A stretch of DNA of 64,000 bases from positions 1 through 64,000 of the forward strand of contig CACWTR010000010.1 of NCBI GenBank assembly GCA_902763865.1. Direction: 5' to 3'. Positions 3,522-10,288 of this stretch are shown here, one piece after another. The position numbers were made by a program, and so were the translations under genes. Source of the DNA: an uncultured Bacteroidales bacterium (GTDB taxonomy: Bacteria; Bacteroidota; Bacteroidia; Bacteroidales; Bacteroidaceae). A model generated the notes under the pieces. The model did not search any database and was not told the origin of the DNA. It saw nothing but the letters and a program-made list of their open reading frames with translations. Positions within the stretch are counted from its first letter, which is position 1, and each line of letters opens with the position of its first letter.

Positions 3522-3551
3522 TTTGTGATATTGCTTTTCTTCGTATCTTTG
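3522..3551 (+). promoter_or_regulatory. Strong Bacteroidetes-type promoter
   Basis: TTTG at 3522-3525, an 18-base spacer, then TATCTTTG at 3544-3551. Transcription should begin near 3556, about 435 bases before the first start codon, so it produces either a free RNA or a long leader. Confidence 0.75.
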
Positions 3552-3555
3552 CACT

Positions 3556-3919
3556 GACCAAGCCAGCTTTTTGTGGCAGGGCGGGCCAAAATCTTAATGG
3601 AATCCCGCGGCTGAGCACACCGTTTGTAAGGACAGCCAAAGGGAAAGGACGTTTTCTGAACGTTACCTGTCTGTGTAAGTCAAACTTCGCAACTTTGAAT
3701 TCGTATCACAGCGGTAATGCAACGAAGCGTTCGCGTGGGTGTATTATATCCTGGCTCATTCGTTGCTATCATTGTATCATGGTGGCTTACGTCTACGCCG
3801 AACTATATAATATCACTCGGCGTGGGCTGGCTTGCGTTGCTTATCCTTGATACGGGGGCAATGCGAAGGCCTGACTTACAGGGATAGGCGCGGAAGAGAT
3901 AACTCCCACGTCTTTTTTT
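3556..3919 (+). ncRNA. Candidate structured RNA or long leader upstream of the peptide locus
   Basis: This roughly 360-base stretch follows a good promoter and has no plausible ORF. It holds several perfect complementary segments: AAGCCAGC (3560-3567) with GCTGGCTT (3826-3833); GCAACGAA (3719-3726) with TTCGTTGC (3759-3766); ACGCCGA (3795-3801) with TCGGCGT (3817-3823); GTATCA (3774-3779) with TGATAC (3848-3853). The 3795-3823 hairpin nests inside the GTATCA/TGATAC pair. The region ends in a run of seven T at 3913-3919, although the hairpin just before it is weak. I did not find tmRNA tag codons, the conserved RNase P core, or a riboswitch I know. It may be an independent RNA or a regulatory leader of the CXXX peptide genes. 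Confidence 0.45.
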
Positions 3920-3947
3920 GTTTCCAGACATAAACATCATTACTCAC

Positions 3948-3991: not shown

Positions 3992-4330
3992 ATGAAGGAG
4001 AATAAGAACAACGGGGAACTCAAGTCACGCCGTGAATTCTTCAAGAGGGCCGCTAAAGGTGTTTTACCAATCTTGGGCGCGATTGTGTTGGCCAGTACCC
4101 CTTCAATTCTCAAAGCTAAGGATGCTGCTCCACAATGGTGTAGATTCGGCTGTGCAGGTTTTTGTGCAGGTCAATGCTATGCGACTTGTGTAGGAAGTTG
4201 TTATGGTAATTGTATAGGGTGTGTTGGCTATTGTAAGCAGGGATGTATCGGATGTGCAGTTGCTTGTAACAGCAGTTGTTCTGGTTCATGTCTGACTGAA
4301 TGTGCATTATCATGTGCGGTATGTGAATAG
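3992..4330 (+). CDS. CXXX-repeat peptide precursor 1 with twin-arginine leader
   Basis: 112 residues. The leader carries SRREFFKRAAKG followed by a hydrophobic stretch (VLPILGAIVLAST), resembling a twin-arginine export signal ending near residue 43. The core holds 17 cysteines, mostly spaced as C-x3-C (CRFGCAGFCAGQCYATC), with three C-x2-C steps (CIGC twice, CAVC). It is the first gene of a set with a radical SAM maturase and resembles the Bacteroides CXXX-repeat ribosomally made peptides. The gene is A+T-richer than its flanks. The modification and final product are unknown; disulfide formation without enzymatic modification is an alternative. Confidence 0.8.
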   Translation: MKENKNNGELKSRREFFKRAAKGVLPILGAIVLASTPSILKAKDAAPQWCRFGCAGFCAGQCYATCVGSCYGNCIGCVGYCKQGCIGCAVACNSSCSGSCLTECALSCAVCE

Positions 4331-4353
4331 GAATCCTACTAATAGAGGAAAAA

Positions 4354-4384
4354 GGATGTGTACTTTGTACAGACCCCTACATCC
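4354..4384 (+). terminator. Hairpin between precursors 1 and 2
   Basis: GGATGT (4354-4359) pairs with ACATCC (4379-4384), with an inner GTAC/GTAC pair. There is no good T-run, so it may act as partial attenuation or RNA protection rather than full termination. Confidence 0.45.
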
Positions 4385-4397
4385 TAAAACGTATAAT

Positions 4398-4425
4398 GCC
4401 GAATCTCGGGAAGTCTATAGGCAAT
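4398..4425 (+). promoter_or_regulatory. Hairpin leader motif, copy 2
   Basis: GCCGAATCTCGGGA, then eight bases, then GGCAA, ending about 15 bases before the ATG of precursor 2. CCGA pairs with TCGG, and GCC with GGC. It has the same order and position as the 3948-3971 copy. Confidence 0.5.
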
Positions 4426-4438
4426 AATTGTTATTCTT

Positions 4439-4720
4439 ATGCAAAAAAACAAAAAGAACGAAGAAATTCAGTCTAGAAGACAGTTCTTCAAGAGTGCTGC
4501 AAAGGGCGCCCTCCCTATCTTGGGTGCTATCGTACTAGCTAATGTACCAGGCAACACGAATGCATCACAAGAAAGTCCGATGGGCTGTTCTCGCAGTTGT
4601 ACAAACACTTGTTCAGCACAGTGTCGGTCTTATTGCAAGGTTGGCTGCGACAACAGTTGCAACTATCACTGCACCAGAACTTGTGGATCAACCTGCAAGG
4701 GTGGTAGCTATGGTAAGTAA
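4439..4720 (+). CDS. CXXX-repeat peptide precursor 2 with twin-arginine leader
   Basis: 93 residues. The leader is closely similar to that of precursor 1 (SRRQFFKSAAKGALPILGAI), so the same enzymes and export route probably recognise both. The core has ten cysteines, every one spaced exactly C-x3-C (CSRSCTNTCSAQC to CTRTCGSTC), the cleanest CXXX repeat in the locus. It ends in GGSYGK. It lies 108 bases after precursor 1 and 53 before the radical SAM gene, with a hairpin in each gap. Confidence 0.82.
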   Translation: MQKNKKNEEIQSRRQFFKSAAKGALPILGAIVLANVPGNTNASQESPMGCSRSCTNTCSAQCRSYCKVGCDNSCNYHCTRTCGSTCKGGSYGK

Positions 4721-4732
4721 TCCCTCTATTTA

Positions 4733-4760
4733 GGAGCAGGTGTTTTACATCTGCTCCTTT
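4733..4760 (+). terminator. Hairpin between precursor 2 and the radical SAM gene
   Basis: GGAGCAG (4733-4739) pairs with CTGCTCC (4751-4757), with an inner TGT/ACA pair, followed by TTT. It is likely a leaky terminator that would keep precursor transcripts above maturase transcripts. Confidence 0.6.
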
Positions 4761-4773
4761 AAACTTTGAAAGT

Positions 4774-5994
4774 ATGGAAAAAGAAGCTATAAAGAAGAAC
4801 GATACAGGCTGGAAGAATGGTATGGCGAAGAATATAACTTTCATCGTCACCAAAGACTGCCAGTTAGCCTGCAAGTATTGTTATCTTGTAGGTAAGAATG
4901 AGAAGGAACGCATGTCATGGGAGGTGGCGAAAATGGCCATTGATTATATCCTTGACCAAGAAGATGACATGCAAGAAGAAAGTGTGGTATGGGATTTCAT
5001 CGGTGGAGAGCCGTTTTTGGAAATAGAATTAATTGACAAGATTTGCGACTACTTAAAGATTGAAATGTTTCAGCGAAATCATCACTGGTTCAACTCATAT
5101 AGATTCAGCTTTTCTACTAATGGGATTAATTATGACAGTGAAAAGGTTCAGGAATTCATCAGAAAGAATAGAGATCATCTGAGCATAGGTATAACAATAG
5201 ATGGTACAGAAGTCAAACACGACTTGAACCGTATATATAAAGTTACTGGCAAAGGCTCCTACAAGAGTGTCGTCCGTAATATTCCTTTATGGCTGGAGCA
5301 ATTCCCTTATGGCGGCACAAAGGTTACAATCAGTTCCCCTGACATCCCTTACATAAAGGAAAGCGTTCTACATCTATATAGTCTCGGTATTAAAGAAATC
5401 AACATTAATGTTGTTTTCGAGAATGTATGGAAAGAAGGAGATGATAAGCTATTTGAAGAGCAATTGATGTCTCTTGCTGATGCAATAATAGATGAAGGCT
5501 ATTACAAAGACTATGCGTGTTCTTTCTATTCAGAAAACATAGGCAAGCCATTAGACCCGATTCTTGAAAATACTAACTGGTGTGGTGCTGGCCGTATGCT
5601 TGCCGTTGATGCTAATGGCATATTCTATCCTTGTACTCGTTTTGCACAGTACTCTCTTCGCGACAAGAAAGCTTGGACAATAGGAAATGTTAATGATGGC
5701 ATAGACAAGAACAGACTTCGTCCATTCCTTGTTCTTGACCGCCTGAGCCAATCTAAACAAGAGTGCATTGATTGCGAAATCGCAAGTGGCTGCGCATGGT
5801 GCCAAGGCGAAAACTACGATGCTGCTGAGAGCAATACCATTTTCCAGCGCTCCACGGCGATTTGCAAGATGCATAAGGCTCGTGTTCGTGCCAATAACTA
5901 CTACTGGAACAAGCTCTATCGCAAATTAGAATTAGAAGGGCAACGCGAAGAGTATGAAAAGAACAAAAAGGAAGTGAAACAAGAAATTTGTTAG
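4774..5994 (+). CDS. Radical SAM-SPASM peptide maturase of the CXXX-repeat type
   Basis: 406 residues. The [4Fe-4S] triad C29-x3-C33-x2-C36 (CQLACKYC) opens the radical SAM domain; the GGEP motif (IGGEPFLEIE) follows. A C-terminal SPASM region has clustered cysteines (WCGAGRMLAVDANGIFYPC, then CIDCEIASGCAWCQ). This is the architecture of peptide-modifying enzymes that install thioether or other links on Cys-rich precursors in the cytoplasm. Flanking CXXX precursors and the SPASM-only partner immediately downstream support the radical SAM peptide maturase, CXXX-repeat target family. The exact chemistry cannot be read from the sequence. Confidence 0.88.
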   Translation: MEKEAIKKNDTGWKNGMAKNITFIVTKDCQLACKYCYLVGKNEKERMSWEVAKMAIDYILDQEDDMQEESVVWDFIGGEPFLEIELIDKICDYLKIEMFQRNHHWFNSYRFSFSTNGINYDSEKVQEFIRKNRDHLSIGITIDGTEVKHDLNRIYKVTGKGSYKSVVRNIPLWLEQFPYGGTKVTISSPDIPYIKESVLHLYSLGIKEININVVFENVWKEGDDKLFEEQLMSLADAIIDEGYYKDYACSFYSENIGKPLDPILENTNWCGAGRMLAVDANGIFYPCTRFAQYSLRDKKAWTIGNVNDGIDKNRLRPFLVLDRLSQSKQECIDCEIASGCAWCQGENYDAAESNTIFQRSTAICKMHKARVRANNYYWNKLYRKLELEGQREEYEKNKKEVKQEIC

Positions 5995-5998
5995 AACT

Positions 5999-6955
5999 AT
6001 GCTTCAATACCTTATTATACTATTAGACGATACCAGTACGTCGTATTGTCATTACGAGAATCCGAAAAAGGATGCAGGGCTTATCCCTTTGAACATTTTA
6101 AAGGCTGGCATTCGCTTTGGCATGGTGGAGAATCTGATGATTCAATTCGTCTATCCGGACTATGAACTGCCTGGAGAATACAAGGAAGCCATAGAGAGTA
6201 TAGACCACAGCAAGATTGTTTCGTCATTATGCAATGATAAATCGTTGGCTGATGAAGCGGATGTTATTGTCTTCCATGATTGGTCAGGAATAAGCTATGC
6301 TATGACATTTCCTGATAAGAGTTATGTTTTAAGGACGACAAAGGCCAAATTATTTGAAAGGTATTTGTTCCTAAAAGAATTCCTGTCTAAAGTTGCTCGT
6401 CTCAACATCGTAATAACAGATATTGAGACTTTTGATGATGGTGATTATGAGCAATACAAATTGATTCTTCACACCTTATCAGAGAATATAGAAAAAATGT
6501 ATGTTGACGGATTAGCTCCACAACTGAACCTCCTCACTGACCGTATCATGCTGAAGGAAATGAACAACTGTGGTGCAGGCGACACGAATATTACCCTTGC
6601 TCCCAATGGGAAATTTTATATTTGTCATGCTTTTTACATCGAGAATGAGGATGATTGTATCGGAGATGTTAAGCGGGGACTTGATATAAAGAATAAGCAA
6701 CTTTACAAACTGAAATATTCTCCAATATGCAGTCACTGTGATGCCTATCAATGTAAACGGTGCGTTTGGCTGAATCGAAAGACAACGCTCGAAGTGAATA
6801 CTCCATCTCACGAACAGTGTGTGGTAGCCCACTTGGAACGTAACTCTTCATGTGAGTTGTTGAAAAGCATTCGTAAGCATGGTAAGTTTTTACCAGAGAC
6901 AGAGATACAGGAGATAGATTATTTAGATCCATTTGACAAGAGGAAGGAGTGGTAA
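5999..6955 (+). CDS. CXXX-repeat peptide maturase, partner protein
   Basis: 318 residues, starting 4 bases after the radical SAM stop, so probably coupled. It lacks the radical SAM CxxxCxxC triad, but its second half has a SPASM-like cysteine set (NNCGAGDTNITLAPNGKFYICHAFY, described by its ends; then CSHCDAYQCKRCVWLN and a later C). The first half is a divergent alpha/beta region. Position and sequence match the companion proteins seen with CXXX-repeat radical SAM systems. It may bind precursor or iron-sulfur clusters; the catalytic role is unknown. Confidence 0.75.
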   Translation: MLQYLIILLDDTSTSYCHYENPKKDAGLIPLNILKAGIRFGMVENLMIQFVYPDYELPGEYKEAIESIDHSKIVSSLCNDKSLADEADVIVFHDWSGISYAMTFPDKSYVLRTTKAKLFERYLFLKEFLSKVARLNIVITDIETFDDGDYEQYKLILHTLSENIEKMYVDGLAPQLNLLTDRIMLKEMNNCGAGDTNITLAPNGKFYICHAFYIENEDDCIGDVKRGLDIKNKQLYKLKYSPICSHCDAYQCKRCVWLNRKTTLEVNTPSHEQCVVAHLERNSSCELLKSIRKHGKFLPETEIQEIDYLDPFDKRKEW

Positions 6956-6956
6956 A

Positions 6957-7307
6957 ATGGAAATAATCAGCAGAAGGAACTTTTTTAGGAAGGTAACAAA
7001 TCTATTACCTTTGTTCTCTTTGATATTACTACCAGACTGTAGCGTAAAAGCAGCTATTGCAACTGACTGTAAGAAAGCTTGTGTAAGCACATGTGAAACA
7101 AACTGTGGAAACAATTGTGTTTCCGCATGTGCTAAAACTTGTAGTTTAGCATGCCAAGGAGGATGTAAAGAGCAATGTGCATCAAGCGGATGTATGGATA
7201 ATTGCAAAGGGTCTTGTGCAAGAACCTGTAAACAGACCAGTAAGTACATGTGTGGAGATTCTTGTGGTGGCAGTTGCGCTGTAACATGTAAACAATCAAA
7301 TAAATAG
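6957..7307 (+). CDS. CXXX-repeat peptide precursor 3
   Basis: 116 residues from the ATG at 6957, just after the upstream stop and preceded by AGGAAGGAG. The leader again has twin arginine (SRRNFFRK) and a hydrophobic stretch (LLPLFSLILLPDC), but is otherwise diverged from precursors 1 and 2. The core holds 18 cysteines, mostly C-x3-C (CKKACVSTCETNCGNNC), with a seven-residue gap near the end (CKQTSKYMC). The Cys in LLPDC could mark a lipobox. It lies inside the maturase operon rather than upstream of it. Confidence 0.8.
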   Translation: MEIISRRNFFRKVTNLLPLFSLILLPDCSVKAAIATDCKKACVSTCETNCGNNCVSACAKTCSLACQGGCKEQCASSGCMDNCKGSCARTCKQTSKYMCGDSCGGSCAVTCKQSNK

Positions 7308-7312
7308 AAAAT

Positions 7313-7588
7313 ATGAACAAAAAAATTGTAGGGCAAGTGACACCTGATGAGAAGAATGAGATTCTTACTCTTTTCGAACGTCGCAACGGATTGAATGAAC
7401 TGGCAAAGATTCTTACAGCAGATAATGCTGAGTTGTATGAGAAACTGGTGAAGGACTTGGGCGAAACAGGTACGAAGTTTCAATACTGGTGGAATCGTAT
7501 GGCAGAGAAATACCAATGGGAATCTGCTGAGAACGGCAACTGGGAAATCAACTTTGATACATGTGAAATCTATTTGTGTGTAATATGA
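7313..7588 (+). CDS. Small CXXX-repeat modification-system protein
   Basis: 91 residues, five bases after precursor 3. Mostly helical and acidic (VTPDEKNEILTLFERRNGLNELAKIL), with a conserved-looking aromatic segment (KFQYWWNRMAEKYQWE) and a short C-terminal end (NFDTCEIYLCVI). It resembles the small proteins annotated as CXXX repeat peptide modification system proteins, and may bind the precursor or bridge the enzymes. Its stop overlaps the start of the lipoprotein gene. Confidence 0.65.
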   Translation: MNKKIVGQVTPDEKNEILTLFERRNGLNELAKILTADNAELYEKLVKDLGETGTKFQYWWNRMAEKYQWESAENGNWEINFDTCEIYLCVI

Positions 7589-8028
7589 AAAAGATATTTA
7601 TAATTGCTGTAATGGCTGCATACCTTTTTTGCTCATGTGAAAAGGAAGAGGAATATTCGTACAAAACAACAACCAAAACGAATACAACGTCTATTACAAA
7701 ACCAACTGTCAGTGTATCATCAAGTAAAGCAAATTCCACATACGATGGTTGGTGGGTAATAGCAAAAGTCACAACAGGCGGTGATGACCCCAGCAATGTA
7801 GAATGCTATTTAGAGTGGAGTAAATATACAAAAAAGCAAACTGGTACTATATCGTATTCCAACAGAGATAATATGAGAGTCCAATCAAGCTCAAAAAGTC
7901 AAGTATTGTTTAAAACTGAACATGCAGGAATAAACAGCGGGAACTATATCTATTACAGGATTGTTGGTAAAAACAGTAAATATACCACCACCGGAACAGG
8001 AACTTACATGGTAGCCACAAAATATTAA
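7585..8028 (+). CDS. Lipoprotein of the CXXX peptide locus
   Basis: 147 residues from the ATG at 7585, overlapping the previous stop as ATGA. The signal peptide ends in a lipobox-like LFCSC, followed by acidic residues (EKEEEY) that favour outer-membrane placement in Bacteroidetes. A Ser/Thr-rich linker leads to a beta-rich domain (GWWVIAKVTTGG, VECYLEWSKYTKK, YIYYRIVGKN). Coupling to the modification genes suggests a role in anchoring, immunity or surface display of the product; this is inference. No family is recognised. Confidence 0.65.
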   Translation: MKKIFIIAVMAAYLFCSCEKEEEYSYKTTTKTNTTSITKPTVSVSSSKANSTYDGWWVIAKVTTGGDDPSNVECYLEWSKYTKKQTGTISYSNRDNMRVQSSSKSQVLFKTEHAGINSGNYIYYRIVGKNSKYTTTGTGTYMVATKY

Positions 8029-8335
8029 AAAGGAATAACCGCATCATGACACAATTATAAGAAGCCGTATTCGTAGAATTAGCAGCACGACAGAAGGCCT
8101 TTCACGTCATTATATTATGTTACAAGAAAAGAGAAATACAGAGAAACCTATTTAGGGTATAGCCAGAAGCAAAAGAAACCATGTTTTGCTCTTTCTATGT
8201 TGATTAATTGGAGTATTATGACAGCTATATAAAGGTAGTCGTACGAAATAGCCTCACTTGGTATTAAAAAAAGCGGGCGAAAACAGATGTGTGGGTCTGC
8301 CTTCGTCCGCTTTTGTGGAATAATGTGCGAAAGGA
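8029..8335. other. Spacer after the CXXX locus
   Basis: A+T-rich DNA with no gene that I can support. It ends in the bidirectional terminator at 8266-8315, which marks the right edge of the A+T-rich island. Confidence 0.6.
8266..8315. terminator. Bidirectional terminator between the peptide locus and GH97
   Basis: AAAAGCGGGCGAA pairs with TTCGTCCGCTTTT around a 20-base loop, giving A/T runs on both sides. It serves the convergent genes ending at 8028 (plus) and 8336 (minus). Confidence 0.85.
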
Positions 8336-10288
8336 TTACTTTCCTACTTCGATGCTGGCGCACCAGCCGCCGTTGCGTGCCATGTGGATAGGCAGGACGG
8401 TGCTGCTGTTGACCTTGCTCTGCTGGCGTACGTAGTCCATAGCGATGATGTGGGCGTTGACGCCGTCGGCGAAGCTCGTCATGCGATACTCCTTGCCTTC
8501 GGGCAGGAAGTCGAGCTTGAGCTGGAAGTCGCGTTCCTGGCTGTTCGTGATACCGCCGATGAACCACTTGTTGCCCTTGCGCTTTGCCGTGATGCAGTAC
8601 TGTCCGGCTTCGGCCTGGAGGACGCGTGTCTCGTCCCAGTTGACGGGTACGCTGGTGAGGAAGTCGCGGCAGTCGGGCCACTGGTCGTAGCGGCAGGGGT
8701 TGTCCATGAGCATCTGCAGGTTGCTCTCGGCAAGCACGAAGATAGCCAGGTTGAAGGCTTTTGTGCCTACGCCGGCGCAGATGGGGCGGTTGCCGTGATG
8801 ACGCTCGGGCTGGTAGTTGAGCATTGAGCCGGGCGTGTAGTCCATTGGTCCGACGGCATTGCGGATGAAGGGCAGCCAGACGCTATTGTCGGGCTTGCAC
8901 GAGCCGTTGTATTCCATGCCGCGCACGCCTTCGTAGGTCAGTACGTTTGGATACTTGTAGTCCAGTCCGCTGGGGTGGAAGGCGCCGTGGAAATCGACGA
9001 AGATGTGGTGCTTGGCTGCTTCCTGTGCGACGCGCTCGTAGAAGTTCACCATCCACTGGTCCTGCCGGTCCATGAAGTCAATCTTCGTGCCCTTGATGCC
9101 CCACTGCTCGAACTTCTGGAAGAGGTCCATGTTATGCTCTACGGTGAGCCAGGGGAGCCACAGGATGACTCCGACGCCTTTGCTCTTGCCGTATGCAATG
9201 ATTTCGGGCAGGTGCACTTCCGGATTGGTCTCGAAGGGGTTGCGTGTGTTCTTAGCCCAGCCTTCGTCGATGAGGATGTAGCCTACGCCGTTGCGTGCTG
9301 CAAAGTCGATGAAGTACTTGTAGGTGTCGAGGTTGATGCCGGACTTGAACGTTACGTCGGGCCCGAAGGGGATGCCGTTGAGCCAGTCCCAGCAGGTCTG
9401 TCCCACCTTGACCCACTCGGTGTCGCCGATGGCATTGGCGGGAGCCAGTCGCACGGGCATGACGTTTTCCGGCAGTTGCGTGTCGCTCTGGGTGATGTAC
9501 ATGTAGCGCCAGGGGAAGGTGCGGGTGCCGCTTGTCTTGGCAACGTAGTCGGCCTCCTTCAGGATTTTGTGGCTGCGGTCGCCTTGGTCCTCGTACTCAA
9601 GCGGGCACTTGGGCTGGATGGAGGTGAAGGCGTTGCTGCCTTCGCCGCAGGACTTGAGGAAGGTGCCGGCGTAGTCGAAGAGGTCGAACTCGGAGATGAG
9701 CACCTTTTGCTTCTGGCCCATGACGAGGATGGGCAGCTCGCTCATCTTGTCGTCGGCCTTCCATTCTTCTGACTTGACGACGGAATAGTTCTCTTCGCAG
9801 CTGGTCTTGAAGCCGCCTGCCTGCTGCAGTACGAGCCTGCTGGGAGATGCCAGCTGCCAGGTGCCTTCCTCGCCCATCACCTCGATGTCGCCCTTCAGGG
9901 CTGTGACGAAGCGGTAGGCCACGCCGTCGTCATAGACGCGCCACTCCACCTTGTAGCCTCCGCCAAAGGTGAGGGTGAGCAGGGTGTAGTTGTTCTCCAC
10001 CGTGCTGAACTTCAGGGGATGGATGGGCGTGATTGTCTCGCGGACCGTTGTCACCTTCTTGCCTTTGAGGGCAGGCTTCTCGCCGAGGGTGCGGTCTCGG
10101 AGGGTCATGGCGATGCGGTTCTGCCGGAACAGCTGTTCGCCGTGGCTTTCTACATCGTAGTAGATGCGGTCGGAGATGCTGACCGTCACCTTTGTCTGTC
10201 CGTCAGGGCTTGTTGCGCTGACTTGTTTCTGTGCTTGTGCAGCAAGGCCCGACAGGAGCAGTGCTGCAAGGAAGAGTGACTTCTTCAT
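8336..10288 (-). CDS. GH97 alpha-glycosidase, probably retaining alpha-galactosidase type
   Basis: 650 residues with a signal peptide ending near AAQAQ. N-terminal beta-supersandwich, then a TIM barrel. The motif GTKIDFMDRQDQ puts Asp404 where the nucleophile lies in retaining GH97 enzymes, and TYEGVRG (Glu453) fits the acid/base. Inverting SusB-type alpha-glucosidases have Gly at the nucleophile position, so an alpha-galactosidase or another retaining activity is more likely. Secreted to the periplasm. It stands alone, with no SusC/SusD pair nearby in the window. Confidence 0.9.
   Translation of the reverse strand: MKKSLFLAALLLSGLAAQAQKQVSATSPDGQTKVTVSISDRIYYDVESHGEQLFRQNRIAMTLRDRTLGEKPALKGKKVTTVRETITPIHPLKFSTVENNYTLLTLTFGGGYKVEWRVYDDGVAYRFVTALKGDIEVMGEEGTWQLASPSRLVLQQAGGFKTSCEENYSVVKSEEWKADDKMSELPILVMGQKQKVLISEFDLFDYAGTFLKSCGEGSNAFTSIQPKCPLEYEDQGDRSHKILKEADYVAKTSGTRTFPWRYMYITQSDTQLPENVMPVRLAPANAIGDTEWVKVGQTCWDWLNGIPFGPDVTFKSGINLDTYKYFIDFAARNGVGYILIDEGWAKNTRNPFETNPEVHLPEIIAYGKSKGVGVILWLPWLTVEHNMDLFQKFEQWGIKGTKIDFMDRQDQWMVNFYERVAQEAAKHHIFVDFHGAFHPSGLDYKYPNVLTYEGVRGMEYNGSCKPDNSVWLPFIRNAVGPMDYTPGSMLNYQPERHHGNRPICAGVGTKAFNLAIFVLAESNLQMLMDNPCRYDQWPDCRDFLTSVPVNWDETRVLQAEAGQYCITAKRKGNKWFIGGITNSQERDFQLKLDFLPEGKEYRMTSFADGVNAHIIAMDYVRQQSKVNSSTVLPIHMARNGGWCASIEVGK

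Follow-up and report, generated by a model that had tools for sequence, protein, structure and literature searches.

We analysed a 64,000-nucleotide stretch of contig CACWTR010000010.1 (assembly GCA_902763865.1; hereafter the window) from a Prevotella-like bacterium, in which a CXXX-repeat locus at positions 3992-8028 encodes three cysteine-rich precursors together with radical S-adenosylmethionine (SAM) maturation proteins. The seven genes of this locus are all on the + strand, with gaps between successive genes of 108, 53, 4, 1, 5, and -4 bases, and are as follows, with structure model confidence given as the predicted local distance difference test (pLDDT):

3992..4330, + strand: precursor 1, leader of the twin-arginine translocation (Tat) type SRREFFKRAAKGVLPILG; 112 amino acids (aa), 17 core cysteines mostly at four-residue spacing, 13 CxxxC pairs; TIGR04117 38.8 bits.
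4439..4720, + strand: precursor 2, Tat-type leader SRRQFFKSAAKGALPILG; 93 aa, 10 core cysteines all at four-residue spacing, nine CxxxC pairs; TIGR04117 46.2 bits.
4774..5994, + strand: radical SAM/SPASM maturase, active-site C29xxxC33xxC36; 406 aa; TIGR04115 633.2 bits (cut-off 350; profile positions 1-359 of 359); PDB sequence match CteB 5wgg, E 4.4e-24.
5999..6955, + strand: predicted pseudo-radical-SAM partner with barrel and SPASM parts and without CxxxCxxC; TIGR04119 244.8 bits (cut-off 150); AlphaFold pLDDT 93.8; PDB fold match CteB 5why.
6957..7307, + strand: precursor 3, Tat-type leader SRRNFFRKVTNLLPLF; 116 aa, 18 core cysteines, 15 CxxxC pairs; TIGR04117 38.1 bits.
7313..7588, + strand: 91-aa maturation protein TIGR04116, predicted beta-alpha-alpha-beta-beta fold; 101.7 bits (cut-off 50); pLDDT 93.1.
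7585..8028 (from the ATG), + strand: lipoprotein; its N-terminus, ...LFCSCEKEEE, is similar to the C-X-K-(D/E)2 signal for export of lipoproteins to the surface, as read from the sequence.

A preliminary description of this DNA had listed three cysteine-rich genes with 17, 10, and 18 core cysteines, mostly as C-x3-C, a radical SAM-SPASM enzyme with C29xxxC33xxC36, a protein of 91 residues and a lipoprotein, closely spaced and all in one orientation, and each of these was recovered in place. The complete maturation set that it proposed was also confirmed, TIGR04115, TIGR04119, and TIGR04116 all scoring over the curated NCBIfam cut-offs; since these three proteins exceed those cut-offs, the system, which had been put forward as the best candidate for an undescribed one, already has a name there (TIGR04115, TIGR04119, TIGR04116, and TIGR04117/TIGR04114). 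Regarding family assignment, both maturases were placed over their cut-offs, while the three precursors fell below that of TIGR04117 (50 bits), in which they differ from the named system; all 50 of the precursors scanned match TIGR04117 at E up to 0.1. The gene set recurs in relatives, and the window locus is a genuine member of the named, apparently uncharacterised CXXX-repeat family, the names of which, compared by names alone, contain no reference to Tat, TatAC or a pseudo-enzyme. The window genome, a 2.9 Mb assembly of 84% completeness, has this single full TIGR04115 gene. The start of precursor 3 is best set at ATG 6957, an in-frame TTG upstream at 6933 giving an open reading frame (ORF) of 124 aa, and the lipoprotein has homologues in seven of the 109 other loci.

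Relatives comprised 80 named loci (the best 80 of 289) and 29 loci from genomes of the family, giving with the window 110 radical SAM loci. Not all of these are independent, several family-genome loci being duplicates of named ones (e.g., L005/L057 and L006/L051), and precursors were therefore counted as distinct sequences, of which 158 with the arginine pair (RR) were collected, including the three of the window. All three maturation genes are present in 105 of the 110 loci, the other five reaching only part of the set, and their order is nearly always radical SAM enzyme, partner, TIGR04116, with precursors before, between or after them. The 98 loci with precursor candidates (some of them duplicates) divide into 52 with one RR precursor, 43 with two to eight and three with none left by the filter; the combination of several precursors with one enzyme set recurs beyond the window. 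Eighteen candidates were set aside, eight with few CxxxC pairs, including L031:2694, an RR precursor with tighter cysteine spacing, and ten without RR. The ten consist of L006:3932 and L011:3839 (no RR seen, ORF starting close to where the locus stops), L013:3404 (running off the locus, with its N-terminus outside the view), L006:2692/L051:7539 and L010:1050/L062:1050 (each one gene in two copies) and L097:6676, three genes for which an RR leader is encoded in another frame or in the adjacent ORF, L038:6994 (AK in place of RR), and L085:7707 (no leader seen). Adjacent tandem TIGR04115 genes were observed at G129:C80:84782-87006 and G240:C94:70540-72809, one of each pair being more divergent (441 and 479 bits), and at L072:10742-11769 a single locus carries an additional TIGR04116-like gene together with a partner fragment of 113 aa.

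Tat signals have the motif S/T-R-R-x-F-[LF]-K in the n-region ahead of a hydrophobic stretch, and the motif was found before such a stretch in all three window precursors, precursor 3 having FFR. Aligned on RR, the leaders have roughly the consensus (E/D)(L/I)(Q/I)SRRxFFKK-AAK--LP(I/V)(L/I)G. The pattern RRx[FL][FLI][KR] fits 155 of the 158 precursors, and conservation extends beyond it to L at +12 (132/158) and P at +13 (147/158), and ahead of it to E/D at -4 (124/155) and L/I at -3 (130/157). Because RR had served to collect the precursors, the count was repeated with an anchor blind to RR, and 158 of the 162 ORFs anchored in this way carry RR; the other four comprise L022, in which the anchor was misplaced within an RR leader, the spurious ORF L038:3549, L013:3404, which is truncated where the locus stops, and one real exception, L038:6994, with AK. 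Eight more entries gave no anchor, two near a locus end, five (representing three genes) with RR nearby and one (L085:7707) without a leader.

Regarding the translocase, TatC is encoded downstream on the same fetched stretch in 63 of the 80 named loci; among the 46 of these flanked by 6 kb or more on each side, the number is 39. A TatA-like gene precedes TatC in L033, TatA and TatC of L034 were confirmed by Pfam, and a TatA-like cluster was detected in 27 of 81 loci, with short genes escaping this count; strains with a tatC-linked locus include Xylanibacter rarus 109 (L051) and X. caecicola PCHR (L100). Among the 301 family genomes, two or more TatC were found in 22 of the 36 TIGR04115-positive compared with 14 of the 265 negative genomes (Fisher p 5e-15), and any TatC in 35/36 compared with 202/265 (p 0.002). 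TatC lies no more than 10 kb from TIGR04115 in 25 of the 36 positive genomes, and in five (G085, G099, G125, G240, and G247) the linked TatC is the only one found. A TatC tree (n = 101) was built from 41 of the 58 full TatC of family genomes and 60 distinct sequences from named loci, leaving out one unlinked and 16 linked family-genome copies. Its main clade contains 64 of the 69 linked TatC, all three of unclear linkage and none of the 29 unlinked (support 88/80; 100/99 for an inner branch with 61 of them), while the other five linked TatC group in another clade (100/100), next to seven unlinked copies, and linked TatC are thus of more than one origin on the tree. In the window genome a single TatC was found, located on a different contig, and this copy falls among the unlinked ones; inspection by eye of the three-frame + strand translation of window positions 8001-8340 revealed no TatA or TatC remnant, and a dedicated TatC could lie in sequence that the assembly lacks. 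The most informative feature of the system, absent from the preliminary description, is the Tat-type leader together with the translocase linked to the locus in relatives.

A phylum sample of 345 genomes yielded four further TIGR04115 genomes. In two of these (L170 and L171) the precursors carry RR and a lipobox-like VDSC or IDSC, and TatC, not found within the fetched stretch, is encoded elsewhere in the genome. The other two (L172 and L173) have short precursors that lack both RR and a long hydrophobic stretch, and in both the gene after the partner encodes an ATP-binding cassette (ABC) transporter (PF00664 + PF00005) in place of tatAC. Their leaders keep a related ...LHR...LP part (LLHRVSRKTLP in L173), and because non-RR leaders that keep this part are paired with an ABC transporter, the comparison points to the LP part as serving the maturases and to the RR and hydrophobic part as serving Tat. 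No further case of this swap was detected among 41 genomes of the L172/L173 family (those two included). The retained LP part, along with the conservation at +12, +13, -4, and -3 outside the Tat motif, would also be expected if RR were only a maturase-recognition element from an ancestral leader and export proceeded by Sec or another route; however, the TatC linkage in named loci, the enrichment of second TatC copies, the five genomes whose sole detected TatC is linked and the ABC transporter where RR is absent all speak for a role in export, and we regard recognition without Tat export as very improbable.

The active-site cysteines C29, C33, and C36 of the maturase are invariant across 53 aligned sequences, and CxxxCxxC is kept in 109 of the 110 radical SAM homologues. 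A C-terminal cysteine, C406 (window 5989-5991), is also invariant across the 53 aligned sequences. The partner had been described as SPASM-only, and this idea of a lone domain was rejected, as its AlphaFold model, derived from an 83-member alignment, is full length and predicts a degenerate radical SAM fold throughout. The best PDB match of the model is CteB 5why (E 7e-11 over 357 alignment columns; template modelling score 0.66 by query length and 0.52 by target length), followed by anSME, and since the match spans 357 columns the partner is assigned both barrel and SPASM. CxxxCxxC was not found in the first 150 residues of any of the 107 partner homologue ORFs over 250 aa, and C17, near the place of that motif, is invariant in 83 sequences together with seven cysteines of the SPASM region. 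We interpret the partner as a probable pseudo-enzyme, with a possible role in holding the substrate or passing electrons. CteB (SCIFF; PDB 5WGG/5WHY), the best PDB match of the radical SAM enzyme by sequence and of the partner by fold, is one active enzyme, whereas the window locus has active and degenerate copies side by side. The model of the TIGR04116 protein gave no significant PDB match (best E 1.0); in L171 this protein is fused to the pseudo-radical-SAM protein, both profiles scoring over cut-off, which argues that the two work together.

Regarding the precursor cores, the CxxxC pair counts of the three window sequences were reached by none of 20,000 shuffles each (shuffle means 3.6, 1.6, and 3.6). 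Across precursors, 2430 of the 2796 gaps between successive core cysteines are of four residues and 198 of three; in the four-residue gaps proline accounts for eight of 7290 spacer residues, glycine for 35% at position +2, and Asp and Glu together for 7.7, 7.0, and 6.2% at +1, +2, and +3. Four residues after the last cysteine, Ser, Asn or Ala was found in 116 of 152 precursors (p 9e-28; background about 33%, from core composition) and Gly in six, while six precursors, precursor 1 included, stop before this position. Such a residue class fits a bond from cysteine to the residue at +4, and would also fit a plain C-terminal recognition motif. Of the 158 precursors, 80 have an odd and 78 an even number of cysteines; with lipobox-like precursors removed, because a lipobox cysteine can enter the count, 65 of 114 are odd and 49 even. 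All-disulfide pairing was rejected on this lack of an even-number bias.

The very high cysteine content and small spacer residues would suit a metallothionein-like or disulfide-rich protein, exported by Tat with its cysteines free, disulfide-bonded or metal-binding, while the radical SAM pair acts otherwise. This is unlikely in view of the conserved gene set with its intact radical SAM active site, the cysteine numbers, the conserved residue class after the last cysteine and the nearest characterised relatives, PapB by profile and CteB by structure, both makers of cysteine thioethers (for CteB, according to the PDB title). The PapB/PapA ranthipeptide maturase family (NF047865) is the best other NCBIfam family for the window radical SAM enzyme, at 202 bits, far under the cut-off of 340. 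According to the accessible part of PMC10470005, PapB joins Cys to Asp in CX3D and the CX3D repeats of PapA share the four-residue step with the CXXX precursors, and that part mentions neither a Tat leader nor a partner. PapB-type CX3D/E chemistry as such was rejected for the present system, in which Asp and Glu are not enriched and the residue at +4 is mostly Cys, not Asp.

A lipobox-like motif ahead of the cysteine array was detected in 44 of the 158 precursors, followed in 34 of these by two or more acidic residues, by means of a pattern that caught a few doubtful cases and missed at least one. These acidic residues resemble the Bacteroidetes surface export signal, the lipoprotein export signal consensus (PMC5080379, in its accessible part). 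Precursors of 317-416 aa were found at L005:172-1422, L014:2618-3649, and L106:5480-6433, with CXXX stretches that flank or follow an extra folded-looking region; these regions gave no Pfam match at E<=0.01 and no meaningful NCBIfam score, and their presence indicates that the presumably modified array may form the tail of a larger protein. Regarding the nature of the product, the small window precursors with signal peptidase I-like sites (read by eye) and the several precursors per locus would be in keeping with diffusible bacteriocins or signals. The lipobox-like precursors, many with acidic residues, and the precursors of 300-400 aa with extra regions (L005, L014, and L106) point instead to structural or surface-anchored proteins, and we consider diffusible products a serious possibility, though the less probable one.

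The reading we favour, at a probability of roughly three in four, is a CXXX-repeat radical SAM system for a ribosomally synthesized and post-translationally modified peptide (RiPP), in which cysteines are cross-linked in the cytoplasm by a complex and the folded product leaves by Tat. We infer that the active radical SAM-SPASM enzyme, the dead radical-SAM-like partner and TIGR04116 would form this cytoplasmic complex, which would recognise the leader common to the three precursors and install cross-links, most likely thioethers, along the four-residue cysteine register. The leader would double as a Tat signal, so that the matured, folded product would be exported by the twin-arginine translocase and then freed by signal peptidase I; where relatives have a lipobox, it would instead be lipidated and possibly displayed on the surface. 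For export, the window locus would rely on the single TatC detected on another contig. A more specific version, in which the Tat signal is itself the maturase leader, a dedicated TatAC passes only the cross-linked folded product, and each cysteine of the ladder is bonded to the residue at +4 (the next Cys, or Ser/Asn/Ala at the end), on surface lipoproteins in some species, is rather unlikely as a whole.

Several observations weigh against the favoured reading. The window locus is without tatAC, which is also absent from the fetched stretch in 17 of the 80 named loci, some of them cut short (seven of the 46 with long flanks), and in G193, a TIGR04115-positive genome that is fragmented and has a partial match, no TatC was found. 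The five genomes with only a linked TatC are 87-97% complete, which weakens the word "only", and the 88/80 support of the main linked clade is under the tool's mark for firm support. The swap of leader and exporter was seen in a small sample, two genomes of one genus, each with a TatC elsewhere as well. Two array ORFs depart from the RR leader, L038:6994 with AK and L085:7707 with no leader seen, and of the Tat-signal profiles TIGR01409 detected one and TIGR02811 eight of 50 precursors, PF10518 not being among the matches of the 50 precursors scanned. These profiles, which mostly miss these leaders, were rejected as proof of Tat, and because they seldom detect them the Tat reading rests on the motif together with the translocase and exporter evidence. 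For the partner, a profile comparison with the radical SAM enzyme aligned the SPASM half alone (probability 78).

Upstream of precursor 1, two further features were found:

3544..3551, + strand: candidate Bacteroidales-type -7 promoter element TATCTTTG, read from the sequence, at the start of a conserved upstream region.
3640..3937, + strand: structured RNA element (5' untranslated region or small RNA), with a terminator-like hairpin and T-run at its end, just upstream of precursor 1.

The promoter candidate was called by what we take to be the Bacteroidales -7 consensus. The core of the RNA element has three nested helices and a terminator-like end, with weak covariation (changes on both sides in four of 21 pairs), and positions 3640-3937 matched no Rfam family. 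Second and third copies are present at G000:C3:64460-64582 and C12:58359-58481, and matches were found in 80 of 121 family genomes, with 1-16 copies each. As the element is multi-copy and precedes other genes, which by eye are lipoprotein-like, secreted-looking or small helix-turn-helix (HTH)-like, a CXXX-specific riboswitch was rejected. Small HTH-like genes follow a copy of the element at L061:5260, L065:16850, L046:2637, and L084:4602, and an HTH-like cluster that includes L094:5722 (HTH_3 19.2 bits, cut-off 23) occurs in 14 of 81 loci; these small genes are possible regulators.

Among known systems, bufferins and RiPP-lipoprotein hybrids (MNIO) resemble the present one in that a signal peptide replaces the classical leader, some have a lipobox and some are fused to larger domains (accessible parts of PMC12452194 and PMC12636315). 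As described there, they use the Sec or lipoprotein pathway with an MNIO, whereas the window system has a radical SAM enzyme and, as far as can be inferred, exports by Tat, for which relatives encode a linked translocase; neither main text contains the words "Tat" or "twin-arginine". No paper was found for the family names or "CXXX repeat" with radical SAM in a search mostly without subscription literature, and within the literature searched there is no characterised CXXX family member. Queries joining twin-arginine, radical SAM and RiPP, and those on pseudo-radical-SAM partners, found nothing on topic, and none was found that joins RiPP, signal peptide, leader and TatC, or radical SAM, Cys-rich, Bacteroidetes and precursor peptide, or Tat signal, post-translationally modified peptide and leader peptide; CXXX, TatC, and twin are absent from the main text, as far as accessible, of a Bacteroidales RiPP cluster survey. 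The Tat-coupled reading is not in print within the literature searched.

What appears new here, at the level of sequence and models, are the Tat-type leaders, the TatC linkage, the swap of leader and exporter, the predicted pseudo-radical-SAM partner and the lipobox-like precursors, and Tat coupling would be what sets the system apart from known radical SAM RiPP systems. The CXXX gene set has been named, yet has neither chemistry nor function in the literature searched. An export signal on a RiPP precursor that has to be modified first is a problem that was raised for Sec-exported RiPPs (PMC12452194, in its accessible part), and because Tat transports folded proteins (PMC3827258, likewise in part), a link to Tat would explain how modification can precede export despite the export signal. 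The swap, if it holds, would provide a handle for separating recognition from export within one leader.

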